From Yimella lutea (GTDB taxonomy: Bacteria > Actinomycetota > Actinomycetes > Actinomycetales > Dermatophilaceae), in NCBI RefSeq assembly GCF_006715095.1, contig NZ_VFMO01000001.1:930001-994000 (forward strand): DNA of 64,000 nucleotides, written 5' to 3'. Made by a program: the position numbers and the translations under genes. Below, piece by piece: positions 14,597-36,552 of this stretch (position 1 is its first letter; the number at the start of each line of letters is the position of its first letter). The notes beneath the pieces were generated by a model. That model searched no databases, was not told the origin of the DNA, and was given only the letters and a program-made list of their open reading frames with translations.

Positions 14597-15123
14597 CCAC
14601 ACACGACGTCTTCTTCACCATCGTCGGAGTGCTCTGCCTGGCCAGTGCGGTCCTCGCCGTGACGACCAAGCACATCCTGCACTCGGCCTTGTGGCTCGTG
14701 GTCAGCCTCGGCACCCTCGCCGGTTGCTACCTCGTGCTCGGTGCCGAGTTCGTCGCACTGGTGCAGTTGGTGGTCTACGTCGGCGCGGTCGTCGTTCTGA
14801 TCCTGTTCGCACTCATGCTGACCCGCGCACCCATCGGTCGCTCGAAGGCGCACGACACCCCACGCGTCCAACGCGCCGCTGCGCTCGTGCTCAGTGCCGC
14901 CACCGCGACCCTCATCGGTGCCGCGCTGATCACCGGGTTCGGCACCGGCAAGGTCAGCCTGCGACCGAACACCACCGAGCAACTGGCCACCCAGATCTTC
15001 GCCACCTGGTCGTGGCCGTTCGAACTCTTGTCGTTGTTGCTGCTGATCGCGCTGGTCACCGCAATCATGCTGTCCCGCATGCAACTCGACGAGGTGTACG
15101 ACGACGACGAGGTGGACGCGTGA
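14593..15123 (+). CDS. nuoJ: Complex I subunit NuoJ
   Basis: A 176-residue membrane subunit with five predicted transmembrane segments. The family motif [21 protein letters not shown] contains the conserved Glu/Tyr/Gly helix with the pi-bulge. It ends with an acidic tail, [14 protein letters not shown] start overlapping nuoI; overlaps nuoK by 4 bases (GTGA). Confidence 0.92.
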
Positions 15124-15428
15124 TCCACCTGTGGTTGCCGCTCGCGCTGTCGGCGGCACTCTTCGGCGTCGGTCTGTACGGCGTGCTCGCCCGGCGCAAC
15201 GCCGTGCTGGTGCTGATCGGGGTCGAGCTCATGCTCGGTGCCGCGGGTCTTCTGCTGATCACCGCCGGGGTGAAGTTCTCCGACACCGTCCTGGCCGGTC
15301 AGACGCTCACCGTCTTCCTCATCACGATCGCCGCCGCCGAGATCGCCGTGGCGCTCGGGCTCGTCGTGCTCGCCTACCGCGCACGCGGCAACATCGATGT
15401 CACCGCTGCTCGAGGTGACGACGAGTGA
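15120..15428 (+). CDS. nuoK: Complex I subunit NuoK
   Basis: A 102-residue protein with three transmembrane helices, related to MnhC/MrpC. It has the proton-path glutamate in GVELMLGAAGLLLI and a second acidic residue in AAAEIAVALG. GTG start overlapping nuoJ by 4 bases. It overlaps nuoL by 4 bases if the first nuoL start (15425) is used; the repeat element lies immediately after. Confidence 0.92.
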   Translation: MIHLWLPLALSAALFGVGLYGVLARRNAVLVLIGVELMLGAAGLLLITAGVKFSDTVLAGQTLTVFLITIAAAEIAVALGLVVLAYRARGNIDVTAARGDDE

Positions 15429-17491
15429 AGACACCCCACGAAGTTCTCCACTCGTCCATCGCTCCGATACTTCGCGAGGACCCCTTACTCGACACCACCA
15501 CGGGTGCGCTCGACCTGATGCTCCAACCCAGTCACCTGGCGATCCTGCTGCCCACCCTCGGCGCCTTGTCGGTGCTGCTGTTCCGCAGCCCGAACGCGGT
15601 CGCCGCGTGGATCGTCCGGATCACCGGTTTCCTCGGTCTGCTCGCGCCGGCCTGGCTGGTCTGGCAGTCGATGCGCGGTGGGCTGCGGTCGAGCGTGCCG
15701 ACCGTCGGCGTCCCGATCAGTTCAGCCGAACTCACGCTGCCGCTCCAACTGCACGTCACCCGACTCGCCATTCTCATGGCCTGCGCGGTGGCGCTGGTGT
15801 CGCTGGTCGTGCAGATGTTCGGGCGTTGGTACCTCTACAACGACCCGCGGTACCGCTCGTTCGCTGCGACCGTCGCGCTCTTCACCGCCGCCATGCAATT
15901 GGTTGTGCTCAGCGGTGACGTGGTGCTGACCCTCATCGGCTGGGAGCTGATGGGCTGGTGCTCCTACGTCCTCATCGGCCACGAATCCGAGCGGGCGAAG
16001 GCCCGTCGCGCGTCCTACAAGGCGTTCCTGGTGACTCGTCTGGCCGATGCGCCGTTCTACATCGGGCTCGTCGCGCTCGCGAGTTGGGCGAAGACGACCT
16101 CCATCCCGGGCATCATCGAGTTCTGGAGCGCCCACCCGCAGCGCTCGCTCACGGTGGCGTTGCTGTGCATCGTGTGCGGCGTCGCCGGGAAGTCCGCGCT
16201 GGTTCCCTTCCAGGACTGGCTGGCCGACGCGATGGAAGGCCCGACGCCCGCGTCCGCCCTCATCCACGCGGCCACGATGGTCGCGGCCGGCACCTACCTG
16301 GTCAGCGTCCTGCACCCGCTCTTCCTGGTCGCCCCGAGGGCCACGCTCGCACTCGCGATCCTCGCCGGGATCACGACCGTCGTCGGTGCGCTGCTGGCCT
16401 TCTTGCAGCACGACCTGAAGAAGCTGCTCGCCTGGTCGACCGTCTCGCAGATGGGGCTCATGCTCACCGGCCTCGCCGGTCTTCCGGACGCGGTCAGGCC
16501 GGACGTCGTCGTGCTGCACCTGCTCGCGCACGCCGGCTTCAAGGCGTTGCTCTTCCTGATGGTCGGCTGGCTCGCGGTGCTGGTCGGAGGCACGATCGTC
16601 GAGCGCATGTCCGGCGCAGTCACCACCCACCACAAGACCCGTTGGCTCGTCGGCAGCGGCCTGCTGGCGCTCGCCGGCATCCCGCCGCTGTTCGGCTTCG
16701 TGTCCAAGGACCTCATCGTCGACGAGGTCTTCAAGGGCGTTGCCGACGGACGGCAGTCCTCCTACGTGGCCGCCGTCGCGCTCGTGCTGGTCATCCCGCT
16801 CACCGCCGCGTACGCGATGCGCGCCTGGCTGGTCCTGACCCACCAGACGGTGCTGCAGCGCCACTTCGTCATGGACGTGCTCGACGACTCGCACTCGGTG
16901 CAGGAAGTCGGCCTGATGGACCTGCTGGTCGAGGGTGAACCGGTGGACGAGTTCGGTCGCCCGCTGCGCCGCGAACCCGAGCCTGAGCCCGAACCGGAAG
17001 TCGTCCTGCCGCGTCCGCCGTGGCCGACCCGGATGGGTCTGGGCCTGCTGGCGTTGATCAGCATCGGCGGCGGCGCGCTCATCCTGAGCCCCTGGCTCGA
17101 CATCGACTACATGCACCCGCAGTGGCTGATCGTGGCCGCAGGGCTGCTCGCGATCGCCGCCGCCGGGTTGCTGGTGCGGGCGCTGTCGGTACGCACCACC
17201 TTCGGGGACGCCGCCTCCCGCCTGCCGTTGTACCTGCGTACGTTCGCCTCCCGCGGCGCCGACGTCGACCGGCTCTACCTCGCGCTGGTCGCCCGGCCGG
17301 TCGAGATGCTCGCCGGCGTGGTCGCCCGCGCGGACGCGATGCTGGAGCGTGGGGTTCGCGCCCTGGGCACCGGTGCGCTCACCCTCGCCACCCGCAGCGG
17401 ACGCGTGCACACCGGCGCCCCGTCGGTCGGTCTGGTCGCCCTCGCCTGCGGCGTCGTGCTGGCCGGAGTGCTGGGGGTGACGCTGTGGTGA
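15425..17491 (+). CDS. nuoL: Complex I subunit NuoL
   Basis: A 688-residue antiporter-like proton-pumping subunit with about 16 transmembrane segments. Landmarks are the helix-5 glutamate in LIGWELMGWCSYVLIG, the broken-helix lysine region KSALVPFQDWLADAMEGPTP and the LKKLLAWSTVSQMG block. A cytoplasmic EPEPEPEPE stretch lies near residue 520. The first 31 codons are polar, lack family resemblance, and derive largely from a palindromic repeat (15431-15476). The usual hydrophobic NuoL start matches from the ATG at 15518. The GTG at 15425 keeps the overlap with nuoK; either start may be used. Confidence 0.93.
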   Translation: MKTPHEVLHSSIAPILREDPLLDTTTGALDLMLQPSHLAILLPTLGALSVLLFRSPNAVAAWIVRITGFLGLLAPAWLVWQSMRGGLRSSVPTVGVPISSAELTLPLQLHVTRLAILMACAVALVSLVVQMFGRWYLYNDPRYRSFAATVALFTAAMQLVVLSGDVVLTLIGWELMGWCSYVLIGHESERAKARRASYKAFLVTRLADAPFYIGLVALASWAKTTSIPGIIEFWSAHPQRSLTVALLCIVCGVAGKSALVPFQDWLADAMEGPTPASALIHAATMVAAGTYLVSVLHPLFLVAPRATLALAILAGITTVVGALLAFLQHDLKKLLAWSTVSQMGLMLTGLAGLPDAVRPDVVVLHLLAHAGFKALLFLMVGWLAVLVGGTIVERMSGAVTTHHKTRWLVGSGLLALAGIPPLFGFVSKDLIVDEVFKGVADGRQSSYVAAVALVLVIPLTAAYAMRAWLVLTHQTVLQRHFVMDVLDDSHSVQEVGLMDLLVEGEPVDEFGRPLRREPEPEPEPEVVLPRPPWPTRMGLGLLALISIGGGALILSPWLDIDYMHPQWLIVAAGLLAIAAAGLLVRALSVRTTFGDAASRLPLYLRTFASRGADVDRLYLALVARPVEMLAGVVARADAMLERGVRALGTGALTLATRSGRVHTGAPSVGLVALACGVVLAGVLGVTLW
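15431..15479 (+). repeat. 46-base palindromic repeat, copy over nuoL start
   Basis: 15431-15476 matches 33204-33249 at 42 of 46 positions in the same orientation. The ends can form a 10-base stem, CCCCACGAAG (15434-15443) with CTTCGCGAGG (15470-15479), allowing G-T pairs. It encodes the odd N-terminal extension of NuoL. Confidence 0.8.
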
Positions 17492-31418: not shown

Positions 31419-34064
31419 TCAGTCCTGCGTCACCTGCTGAGCCCGCAGCGCGCGCTCGGCGTGGTCGATCTGCTCCAGGACGATGCGGCGCAGCGCCGCG
31501 GGTGAACCCGGGTTGTCGTCGTACCAACTCCTGATCGCTCCCAGTGCGGCGCGACCCTCGTCGTCCGCGTCCACGTCCGGGAACAGGCCGATCACCAAGC
31601 GCTGCGCCATCGACTGCACACGGTCTCCCCACACGGAGTCGAGCAACTCGACGTACGGCTGCGCGTACTTCGTCCCCGGATCACTGATTCCCCAACCGGT
31701 GAGCAGCGCTCGCTGCGCGTCGTTCGTGAGTTCGTCCTCGACCAGGCGTCGCCAGGTCTCGTCCTGGGCCTGCGGCGCAGCGGCCAGGGCGGTCAGCGAA
31801 CTGGTGCGACCGATGAGCGTGTTGTCCTGCTCGAGCAAGTGCTGCACCTCGGCCTCGTCCCAGGCGCCCTGCCGGACGAGCGACGCGGCGAGTTTCCAGC
31901 GCAGTTCGTCGGTCAGCGTCAGACCGTCCGGCACCTTCCCGTCGGCGAGCGCGGCCGCATCGCCGGCTAGCGTGTCGGTCTGCGACGCGAATTCCGCGAG
32001 CAGATCGGCCCAGGTGCGCTGCAGATCCGACTCGGGTTCGGCGCCGGCGAGAGCCACGCGTGCCACACCGCCCAACGCGTCCCACGCTGCTGTCCGGGTG
32101 CCGGCCGGCAGGAAATGGCCGACCGCGGTCTGCACCTGACCGGCGACGATGCGCAGGATCATCGCGTTGGACTCGGCGGGGGCCTGCGTGCAGAAGGTGT
32201 CGACGAAGCGGGACGCGGGGATGCGGGCGTCACGAGTGAGGTTCCACAATGCGGTCCAGACGGCGCCGCGGTCGAGATCGTCGGTGATGGACGACAGGTG
32301 CGTGCTCGCAACGTGCTGCGACTGCTCGTCGAGGCGGCCGATGCCGTAGGTCAGGTCGCCGGCGTTGACCAGTACCAGGTCGGCTCGGTTGCCGACGGCT
32401 TCGGGCACCTCCACCGATTCGCCCGTCAACGTGACCGGGGCGAGGAAGGTGCGCTCCAGCCCGGCCTCGCCCAGCGCGTATCCGGCGACCTGCAGTTGGT
32501 GCGGTCGGACGACCTCATCGCCGGTGATCCGGTCGGTGCACCGTTGCCGGACGACGAGTTCGGTCACGGCGCCGCCGTGACCGCGCGACGTGTCGGCGGT
32601 GAGTTCGGACGGGGACGTGGTGCGCAGCCAGGCGTCCGCCCAGCGCCACAGGTCGTGCTCGGTGTGCGGTTGCAGGGCGGTCAGCAGATCGTTGAAGGTC
32701 GCCGAACCGAATGCGTGCGCGGCGAAGTAGTCACGTGCGCCGGCGAAGAAGGACTCCGGTCCGATGATCGCCTGCAGTTGGCGCAGGACGGCTGCGCCCT
32801 TGGAGTAGGTGATGCCGTCGAAGTTCTGGGCCGCGGCCTCGAGATCCTCGATCCGGGCGATGACCGGGTGGGTGCTGGGCAACTGGTCGTAGGTGTACGC
32901 CCAGAGCTTGCGTCCGCTGGCGAACTGTAACCACGCCTGGTCGAACCGGGTCGCCTCCTGAGTGACCTGGTAGCCCATCAGGTCGGCGAACGATTCCTTC
33001 AGCCACAGGTCGTCCCACCACTTCGGGGTGACCAGGTCGCCGAACCACATGTGCGCCATCTCGTGCAGGATCACTGCGGCACGGGAGGTGCGCTGCATGG
33101 TGGTGGCGCCGCCACGGAAGAGATAGTCCTCGGTGAAGGTCACCAGGCCGGGGTTCTCCATCGCGCCGATGTTGTACTCCGGCACGAACACTTGGTCGTA
33201 CTTACACCCCACGAAGTTCTCCGCTCGTCCCTCGCTGCGATCCTTCGCGGGGGCCGCGTAAGAAGAACCGCCCCAGGGGTAAGGGAATCCGTACGCGCGG
33301 TCGTAGAAGTCGAGCCCCGCCTTGGTGGTGTAGAAGATCTCGTCGGACTCCAGGTGCTCCAGCATTCCCCGCCGGCACATCGCGGTGAGTTCGATCGTCT
33401 GCGAACTGCCGTCGGCGCGCTCGACGCTCCAGGTGTCCTGGACCACGGCGTACGGCCCCGCGATGAGGGCCACGATGTAGCTCGACAGCGGCGGAGTCGG
33501 CGCGAACGTGTGGGTCGTGCACTCGCCCGCGGGCTCGGACGACACCTCCGGCTGGTTCGAACGCACCAGCCACTGCGACGGCGCGGTCACCACGAAGGTG
33601 AACTCGCCCTTGAGGTCGGGCTGCTCGAAGCAGGCGAACATGCGGCGCGCATCGGTCGGCTCGCAGTGGGTGTAGAGGTAGGTGTTGCAGTCCTCGGGAT
33701 CGGTGAACCGGTGCAGCCCCTCACCGGTGCGACTGTACTTGCAGAGGGCGTCGACGACGACTGTGTTTTCGCCGATCTCCAAGTCGTGCAGGAGGATTCG
33801 CGCGCCGTCGTAGTCCTCCAGGTACACCTGACGACCGTTGACCGTGACCGAATCGATGACGTCGGTGACCAGGTCGATCCAGGTTGAGGTGCCGGTGGAG
33901 TCGAACACCACGGTCGAACGCGAGCGGTAGGTCTGCGCGTCCGTCGCAGCCTCGGAGAGGTCGAGTTCGACGCGGTAGGTGCGCACCTTCAGCTGGTCGC
34001 CCCGTGCGTCACATTCTTGGCGGGTGAGATTCAGATCACTGGTCACGGAACCCGAGTCAAACAT
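31419..34064 (-). CDS. pepN: Aminopeptidase N (M1 metallopeptidase) with in-frame repeat insertion
   Basis: An 881-residue M1 aminopeptidase. Zinc ligands H334, E335 and H338 (HEMAHMWFGD) with the distal E of KESFAD, and the exopeptidase motif GAMENPG (300-306), are intact. The C-terminal ERAP1-like half is complete. Between YPW and KYDQVFVPEYN the family normally has almost nothing; here about 22 residues (266-287, including KDRSEGRAENF) are inserted. They are encoded by a palindromic repeat also found over the nuoL start. The insertion is in frame and near, not in, the active site. The start could be ATG 34064 or GTG 34046. Confidence 0.93.
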   Translation of the reverse strand: MFDSGSVTSDLNLTRQECDARGDQLKVRTYRVELDLSEAATDAQTYRSRSTVVFDSTGTSTWIDLVTDVIDSVTVNGRQVYLEDYDGARILLHDLEIGENTVVVDALCKYSRTGEGLHRFTDPEDCNTYLYTHCEPTDARRMFACFEQPDLKGEFTFVVTAPSQWLVRSNQPEVSSEPAGECTTHTFAPTPPLSSYIVALIAGPYAVVQDTWSVERADGSSQTIELTAMCRRGMLEHLESDEIFYTTKAGLDFYDRAYGFPYPWGGSSYAAPAKDRSEGRAENFVGCKYDQVFVPEYNIGAMENPGLVTFTEDYLFRGGATTMQRTSRAAVILHEMAHMWFGDLVTPKWWDDLWLKESFADLMGYQVTQEATRFDQAWLQFASGRKLWAYTYDQLPSTHPVIARIEDLEAAAQNFDGITYSKGAAVLRQLQAIIGPESFFAGARDYFAAHAFGSATFNDLLTALQPHTEHDLWRWADAWLRTTSPSELTADTSRGHGGAVTELVVRQRCTDRITGDEVVRPHQLQVAGYALGEAGLERTFLAPVTLTGESVEVPEAVGNRADLVLVNAGDLTYGIGRLDEQSQHVASTHLSSITDDLDRGAVWTALWNLTRDARIPASRFVDTFCTQAPAESNAMILRIVAGQVQTAVGHFLPAGTRTAAWDALGGVARVALAGAEPESDLQRTWADLLAEFASQTDTLAGDAAALADGKVPDGLTLTDELRWKLAASLVRQGAWDEAEVQHLLEQDNTLIGRTSSLTALAAAPQAQDETWRRLVEDELTNDAQRALLTGWGISDPGTKYAQPYVELLDSVWGDRVQSMAQRLVIGLFPDVDADDEGRAALGAIRSWYDDNPGSPAALRRIVLEQIDHAERALRAQQVTQD
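33204..33252 (+). repeat. 46-base palindromic repeat, copy inside pepN
   Basis: 33204-33249 matches 15431-15476 at 42 of 46 positions. The ends pair as a 10-base stem, CCCCACGAAG (33207-33216) with CTTCGCGGGG (33243-33252), allowing one G-T pair. It lies inside the extra residues of PepN and is read through on the minus strand. Confidence 0.85.
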
Positions 34065-35924: not shown

Positions 35925-36552
35925 ACCGGCCCCAAGGCCGACAGGAGAAAAACCCGTTGATCGAGGGCGATCACCGACCTACGCTCGGAGGTACACGAGA
36001 AAGGAGGTGGTCCGACTCATGATTTCTTATCGGACGCGTGAGGTGGTTGCGCGCTAGCGCACCCTTCGGTCCGCCGTAGTGGCAGACCGTGGACGTGCGG
36101 GAGCGAATCCATCGCCGCCGCCGCAGCCCGTGGGAGCGTGCATCGTCCAGCACGCACCGGCCATCAGGCCGGAACCCATGGGCTGTTCCATGCCCGCGTG
36201 ACGATCAGCCGGCAGCCGGGACAGGCTTCGAAGATTCGTGGGCCTTCGCTGGGGCCGGCTTCTCGCGATGCGGCACCAACAACGCGCACATGGCCTGCGG
36301 ATGACCTGTGCCGGACATGGAAGCGGCCGGCACGCCAAGGGGTGCGCACCGGCCGCGATGTCCAACGAGGGACATCCAAGACAGAAGAACCAAGGGGTAG
36401 TTCTTCGTCCGACGACATTTCTACCCCATCTGGGGTCGGTTTCAAATAAAGATGACGAAACCTTTCGCCGAGCGGTCCGGTCGGGCCATGGCGCCCGGTC
36501 AGTTTCGGGACCAACGGCCCCTGCGTCGGTGGTAGGTGGCAGGCTGGGCACC
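35925..36552. other. Non-coding region with leader ORF and hairpins
   Basis: About 600 bases with no convincing gene on either strand apart from a 12-codon ORF at 36019. Several stems are visible: GTCCGA/TCGGAC around the small ATG (36010-36035), CCGGCC-ATCA-GGCCGG (36157-36172), a GCGGCCGG/CCGGCCGC pair at about 36323-36356, and competing pairings of GGGGTAG (36394-36400), CTACCCC (36421-36427) and GGGGT (36432-36436). It could be a structured RNA or a long leader ahead of the DtxR-type gene at 36553. Open frames on the minus strand here show no family features. Confidence 0.5.
36019..36057 (+). CDS. 12-residue putative leader peptide
   Basis: ATG to TAG encoding MISYRTREVVAR, with a strong AAAGGAGG 11 bases upstream and the ATG in the loop of a GTCCGA (36010-36015)/TCGGAC (36030-36035) hairpin. 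A GCGCTAGCGC palindrome covers the stop. The strong ribosome site on so short an ORF suggests a regulatory leader peptide. It could be chance. Confidence 0.45.
   Translation: MISYRTREVVAR

Follow-up and report, generated by a model that had tools for sequence, protein, structure and literature searches.

A palindromic repeat read in frame in aminopeptidase N of Yimella lutea is probably a copy of a MIRU-like start-codon element of Actinomycetes

The pepN locus

The window analyzed here is a 64,000-nucleotide stretch of the Yimella lutea genome (NZ_VFMO01000001.1, positions 930,001 to 994,000). On its minus strand lies pepN, the 881-codon gene for aminopeptidase N (31419..34064), identified from the list of open reading frames, a match to the NCBIfam PepN family TIGR02412 (819 bits, cut-off 591), and an alignment with 21 other genomes. 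Between YPWG and KYDQVF, the gene contains an in-frame insertion of 66 nt, or 22 codons (33204..33269, minus strand), which encodes PepN residues 266–287, and the reading frame remains open across all 881 codons despite this insertion. The 22 extra residues between YPW and KYDQVF had been noticed in a first-pass annotation of this DNA, and the comparison with other genomes bears them out. The start given there is also correct, while the end, placed at 33252, falls short: a palindromic repeat with a 55-nt core extends to 33258, and 11 more inserted bases bring the insertion to 33269. The repeat (33204..33258; model R1 match, E-value 3.7e-11) is on the plus strand, in the orientation that elsewhere usually follows the genes, but it is antisense to pepN. 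The two arms of its stem, CCCCACGAAG (33207..33216, plus strand) and CTTCGCGGGG (33243..33252, plus strand), were assigned by reading the sequence and by stem covariation.

The PepN insertion is real and lacking in both sister species. We compared PepN across 22 family genomes of our own choosing, including the window's own: in each of the 21 others the best PepN lacks residues 266–287, and the site in the sister species G001 is empty at the DNA level. The possibility, raised in the first-pass annotation, that these residues are present in most PepN homologs thus does not hold among these family genomes. The two solved structures with a listed alignment, 7v9n and 7v9o, are likewise without the 22 residues, and the insertion falls between two stretches that appear conserved in the alignment. 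Other M1 aminopeptidase genes are present in the window's genome, so PepN is perhaps not the sole enzyme of this type. The PepN of the second sister species, G002 (L095), has a 12-residue insert of its own, LDPKDDAGHQVA, at the same place, which looks unrelated to the 22-residue insert.

Copies in the Y. lutea genome

A second copy of the repeat is found in the same window (15431..15485, plus strand; model R1 match, E-value 1.8e-13), at the point where the stop codon of a nuoK-like gene overlaps the start of nuoL. Direct reading confirms two claims of the first-pass annotation, namely that the 46-base core at 33204–33249 recurs at 15431–15476 with four differences, and that a 10-base end stem can form in both copies, the arms of the second being 15434–15443 and 15470–15479. 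The nuoK-like gene (15120..15428, plus strand), named from its translation and operon, ends in a TGA that overlaps the GTG start of nuoL (15425..17491, plus strand), and the repeat is read in frame as the NuoL N-terminus. NuoL families align with this open reading frame from residue 37–38 on, with scores below the family cut-offs, and the copy amounts to a 54-nt (18-codon) insertion relative to G001 and G002, which are both empty at this site.

A BLASTN search of the whole 3.53 Mb genome with the 69-nt nuoL copy returned six clear copies (E-values 6e-30 to 2e-8, with the PepN copy at 8e-13), in addition to two matches of 14–15 nt with E-values of 0.7 and 2.6. The similarity noticed in the first-pass annotation therefore does recur in the genome. 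A covariance model retrieved the identical six copies and one weak match (E-value 0.001). The six sites are the nuoK/nuoL junction, pepN, the HrpA helicase gene (identified by TIGR01967), a livH/livM-like junction, a tyrA-like start, and an ABC-transporter junction; we named the last three, putatively, from their translations. At the tyrA-like start (L005, G000:C1:1876239), an imperfect duplication of ~30 bp (GTGCACGT...GTCGGCTGTGG) flanks the copy and covers the gene start. Rfam yielded no family for the repeat, either in the window at gathering scores or at four loci up to an E-value of 1. Elsewhere in the window, positions 35993–36191 match the actinobacterial sRNA Ms_IGR-5 (81.7 bits).

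Distribution in Actinomycetota

By BLASTN, copies are present in 15 of 58 genomes, including the window's own; all 15 belong to one family, and none of the 22 genomes from other families gave a match. Model R1 extends this to 67 of 159 family genomes, representing 25 of 53 genera and holding as many as 36 copies, and finds the repeat in 23 of 394 genomes drawn from the class. Model R2, whose training set included copies of several families, recovers it in 43 of the 394 (21 of 137 genera, nine families). A draw across the phylum gave four genomes of 396, i.e., two family members and two from outside the class (G810 and G819); a pattern made of the two ends found the same four, and its reversed control gave zero in every row shown. 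The two genomes outside the class (L361 in G810; L356 and L362–L368 in G819) contain forms of 37–39 nt with the same ends. A scan of named genomes found at least 118 stretches, 80 of them listed; among the matches listed, most are in Nocardioides, and others are in Knoellia, Flexivirga, Metallococcus, Segeticoccus, Leekyejoonella, Marmoricola, and further genera.

Shorter hairpins with the same ends also occur in viral contigs (L369, L371, L377, L379, L380, and L382), and, together with the forms from outside the class, the short versions measure 35–39 nt. Their ends and covarying stem suggest kinship with the longer repeat. A looser two-ends pattern gave eight and six stretches in viral contigs, of which ~8 look by eye like true hairpins and several are chance matches in other DNA. 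A stricter pattern of 23 letters found nothing in the viral contigs, and the 59-nt consensus had no match in collections of phages and plasmids.

The hairpin and its strand bias

Compensatory changes preserve the stem. Of the stem cells in 31 family copies, 97.9% pair, with five double changes versus 0.4 in shuffles; among 102 distinct family copies, in an alignment that was fitted to the structure, the values are 97.4% and 26 versus 3.0. Across the class, 44 copies show 98.1% pairing and 25 double changes versus 6.0. A weaker measure on the same set, which counts how many pairs show a double change, gives four versus 2.6, and 33 of 500 shuffles attain that value. Taken singly, the two copies in the window fold only modestly better than dinucleotide shuffles (PepN copy, z of -2.3 and -1.3 on its two strands; nuoL copy, -1.5 and -2.1), so it is covariation that carries the argument for the stem.

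Wobble pairs are distributed unequally between the strands. On the strand opposite the genes, G.T cells outnumber A.C cells by 131 to 7, and by 66 to 2 class-wide. One nearly fixed position contributes 93 and 40 of the G.T cells, respectively, and without it the counts are 38 to 7 and 26 to 2. This may mean that the hairpin is active on that strand, as could happen in single-stranded DNA, or else that the mRNA hairpin is being weakened by selection.

Association with start codons

Throughout the class, the core of the repeat is mostly 50–60 nt long. In eight genomes, 109 model matches fall into 92 sites, 80 of which hold a single copy, with arrays of two to three copies among the rest; the flanking frames come from a codon model that had been trained on PepN genes, not from annotation. 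The repeat is mostly located between co-oriented genes. Of the 50 sites with a clear frame on both sides, 48 have genes co-oriented with the repeat and two have genes opposed to it, PepN being one. Read with the genes, many copies have ATGA, GTGA, or TTGA on both sides. In the full chain, the first such word opens a mini-ORF of ~20 codons that has no stop within the repeat and ends in a TGA sharing a 4-nt overlap with the start that follows. The full chain is present at 25 of 80 single-copy sites versus 17 of 24,080 decoys taken at shifted positions in the same loci, although neither copies nor genomes are independent of one another. The coupling phase is found in 25 of the 28 sites bearing an NTGA word on both sides. 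The left start word is seen at 36 of the 80 single-copy sites, and none was found at 30 or more of the 92.

The same arrangement was found in the named genomes, in loci selected for a left ATGA. Of 121 sites there, 105 have a recognized right end; the word occurs on both sides at 80, 73 of them in phase. Among model-found loci of Nocardioidaceae, the script recognized 10 sites, eight with the left word and five with the full chain. Individual genomes differ considerably, from 5/6 in G063, 4/8 in G123, 11/29 in G144 (one of the 11 is an array, and in other arrays the test ends at the first unit), and 1/2 in G002, to 1/18 in G082, 2/12 in G001, 1/10 in G006, and 1/7 in the window's genome. The low rates imply that many copies are not coupled. 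In G082 (L133–L149), most copies share extra flanks, CTAGG-like before and TCCACGACTTTCGC-like after the repeat, as if they were part of a longer element.

One junction recurs across genera. A copy is found between zwf and opcA in five genomes of four genera (L185 in G063, L153 in G123, L142 in G082, L021 in G020, and L127 in G006), gene families having been run on the genes at L185. The mini-ORF begins with TTGA or ATGA, and in four of the five the stem has co-varied, with CTCAG/CTGA instead of CGAAG/CTTCG. This copy has possibly been put to use.

Read-through and fusion to proteins

Sixty-seven of 89 distinct copies have no stop codon in any of the six frames, versus 9.8% of dinucleotide shuffles; the copies being homologous, this openness is mainly a property of the consensus. 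Internal in-frame read-through was seen at two of the 92 sites in eight genomes, both in the window's genome, where the repeat is read antisense in PepN and in sense in HrpA. With the repeat-encoded N-terminal fusion of NuoL, this genome has three copies that are read in frame as protein. Among the 105 mini-ORFs from named loci, 20 continue for at least 150 nt beyond the repeat and are candidate N-terminal fusions. One of these is shared by Nocardioides sediminis and N. guangzhouensis (L256, L236), in which a LutB/LldF-type protein begins with a repeat-encoded peptide.

Empty sites and evidence for mobility

Comparison with the sister genomes G001 and G002 gave empty counterparts for the Y. 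lutea copies. Neither sister has a copy at the nuoL, pepN, or hrpA site; at the ABC and tyrA sites, G001 carries the repeat and G002 does not. The liv site is empty in G002, which has a single ATGA there against two in the window's genome, and G001 has a diverged, longer stretch at this site. The copies absent from both sisters are those read as protein, at the NuoL N-terminus, inside HrpA, and antisense inside PepN, three cases being too few for a rule. Further empty sites were identified in other species pairs (L294/L234, L187/G002, L225/L091, and L128/G002). Several empty sites have a single ATGA where filled sites carry two. Array length also varies, with two copies in G144 and one in G028 at the same locus. 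In G135 (L342 and L345), at two places, one copy is inserted into the loop of another. Taken together, the empty sites, nested copies, and differences in copy number suggest that the repeat is mobile.

The traces left at the insertion sites are less uniform. Empty sites, which the first-pass annotation had proposed to look for along with target duplications, were found; the PepN and HrpA copies have neither ATGA flanks nor a clear target duplication, and elsewhere the duplicated length is inconsistent, being 7 bp at L019 and L067 and ATGA or CATGA at other sites. At L079, GTGA stands on both sides of the repeat. A fixed target-duplication length is not supported.

A search for a mobilizing enzyme, covering Y1 in 21 genomes and, to a limited extent, a parent element, found none. 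The Y1 (IS200/RAYT) transposase domain PF01797 is absent from all 21 genomes, high-copy ones included, while the control search was positive in 5 of 14 named genomes. In G144, three of 34 hits to the left-end pattern have no model match; these three were examined as possible traces of an autonomous parent, but no right end was seen in the 10 kb around each, and on inspection they resemble half copies close to gene starts.

Relationship to known repeats

The first-pass annotation knew of no such element in actinobacteria, a statement that does not stand. Mycobacterial interspersed repetitive units (MIRUs) have been described as seemingly mobile, with insertion at start codons and an internal ORF coupled at -4 (PMC12548453); they are 46–101 bp long and occupy 41 loci of M. 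tuberculosis (PMC3914561). The start-codon behavior described for them means that a repeat of this kind is already known in actinobacteria. The repeat studied here is similarly short and probably mobile, with start-codon insertion and an internal ORF at a -4 overlap, seen as sequence architecture and not at every site, and it too forms tandem arrays of variable copy number. It differs from MIRUs in its occurrence in other genera of Actinomycetota, its co-varying hairpin with fixed ends, and its in-frame copies inside genes. The likeness is one of described behavior and architecture. No account of this particular repeat was found in print: 13 papers carry one of four repeat-end strings, but none, by title, concerns a bacterial repeat; listings for palindromic elements, coupling in MIRUs, Nocardioides/MITE, and PATE did not show it; and following up a possible link to HEARO elements and ATGA gave nothing useful.

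Other families share some of these features. The enterobacterial repeats RU-1 to RU-3 (ERIC-like) are MITE-like, measure 103–168 bp, carry ORFs, and have been found fused to genes (PMC2759123); they belong to another phylum, and the abstract of that paper does not mention start-codon coupling. REP elements and PATEs resemble our repeat as short hairpins spread through a genome. The aligned ends, CGGGGTCC...GTGGGGTG, have no GTAG or CGTC tag of the REP type, as named in the title of PMC3733652, and the frequent start-codon sites, together with the missing Y1 transposase, set the repeat apart from REP/RAYT systems.

Alternative explanations

The first-pass annotation likened the PepN insertion to the Rickettsia palindromic elements (RPEs). 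The comparison is apt insofar as a palindrome sits in frame inside a conserved enzyme and is absent in relatives, and the HrpA and NuoL copies, similarly lacking in both sister genomes, the openness of the copies in six frames, and the candidate N-terminal fusions in the named loci all agree with it. However, RPEs are ~150 bp long and nearly half of them lie in ORFs (PMC10969869), whereas internal read-through affects two of 92 sites here, and the start-codon architecture is common and far above decoys. Residence in proteins as a small peptide is thus very improbable as the main way of life of this repeat, and that part of the comparison is not supported. A regulatory RNA or DNA hairpin between operon genes, kept for expression control and not mainly mobile, would account for the compensatory changes in the stem and for the zwf-opcA copy shared by four genera. 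We consider it quite improbable in view of the repeat's scattered presence, the in-protein sites lacking in the sisters, the changes in copy number, and the nested copies; moreover, the strand that would be in the mRNA has A.C mismatches where the other has G.T.

A descent from single-strand transposons is unlikely, although several features would fit. The repeat might be a relic or satellite of such an element, either an IS200/IS605-derived PATE or a REP moved by Y1, with the left ATGA as the target word and the right ATGA as the element's own end; insertion would then restore the start codon without target duplication. Fixed ends around one palindrome with an ATGA-like word on both sides are consistent with this, as is the excess of G.T on one strand, with or without the nearly fixed position, which is expected for a hairpin processed on one strand. 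PATEs are reported to have palindromes close to their ends and to use target words without duplicating them (PMC3119063), and the palindrome and ATGA-like word are present here, with the second ATGA being either a duplication or part of the element. Against this stand the lack of PF01797 in all 21 genomes and the paired GTGA at L079, which favors duplication, and the strand bias could equally come from selection against an mRNA hairpin.

A probable MIRU-like origin of the PepN insertion

We favor, with a probability of about 0.7, the explanation that the PepN insertion stems from a short palindrome, mobile but non-autonomous, whose behavior is that of a mycobacterial MIRU. The insertion is best read as a tolerated, off-target copy of a MIRU-like start-codon element of many Actinomycetes. 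In general terms, the element, often found at start codons and at stop/start overlaps of the ATGA type, reads ATGA (or GTGA/TTGA), CACCCCAC-stem-loop-stem-GCGGGG[A/G]CCCCG, and ATGA again. A ribosome ending the upstream gene could restart on the mini-ORF of ~20 codons, and the 4-nt overlap of its TGA with the next start would let the operon tolerate the insertion; the architecture can be read directly from the DNA, and we infer its translation and coupling. Because most copies are free of stops in six frames, a stray insertion elsewhere could be read through. The PepN copy would be such a case, transposed off target and antisense between YPWG and KYDQVF and kept because it was in frame. Its frame and its absence in relatives are plain from the sequences, and its tolerance and neutrality are presumed.

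A wider proposal, which we find possible but somewhat short of probable, is that the repeat represents a family of tiny non-autonomous elements across Actinomycetota. Their fixed ends (CACCCCAC...GCGGGGACCCCG) and the hairpin on the strand opposite the genes would be read by an enzyme, insertion at start codons with a built-in coupling mini-ORF would let operons survive, and, the sequence being mostly stop-free, conserved proteins would also gain new N-termini and internal peptides from it. If this is true, start-codon-targeting, self-coupling repeats would be no peculiarity of mycobacteria but much wider in actinobacteria, and MIRU-like coupling and RPE-like insertion into proteins, which have been described separately, would be joined in one element. 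The natural pairs of filled and empty sites allow direct tests of both the coupling and the tolerance of proteins to the insertion.
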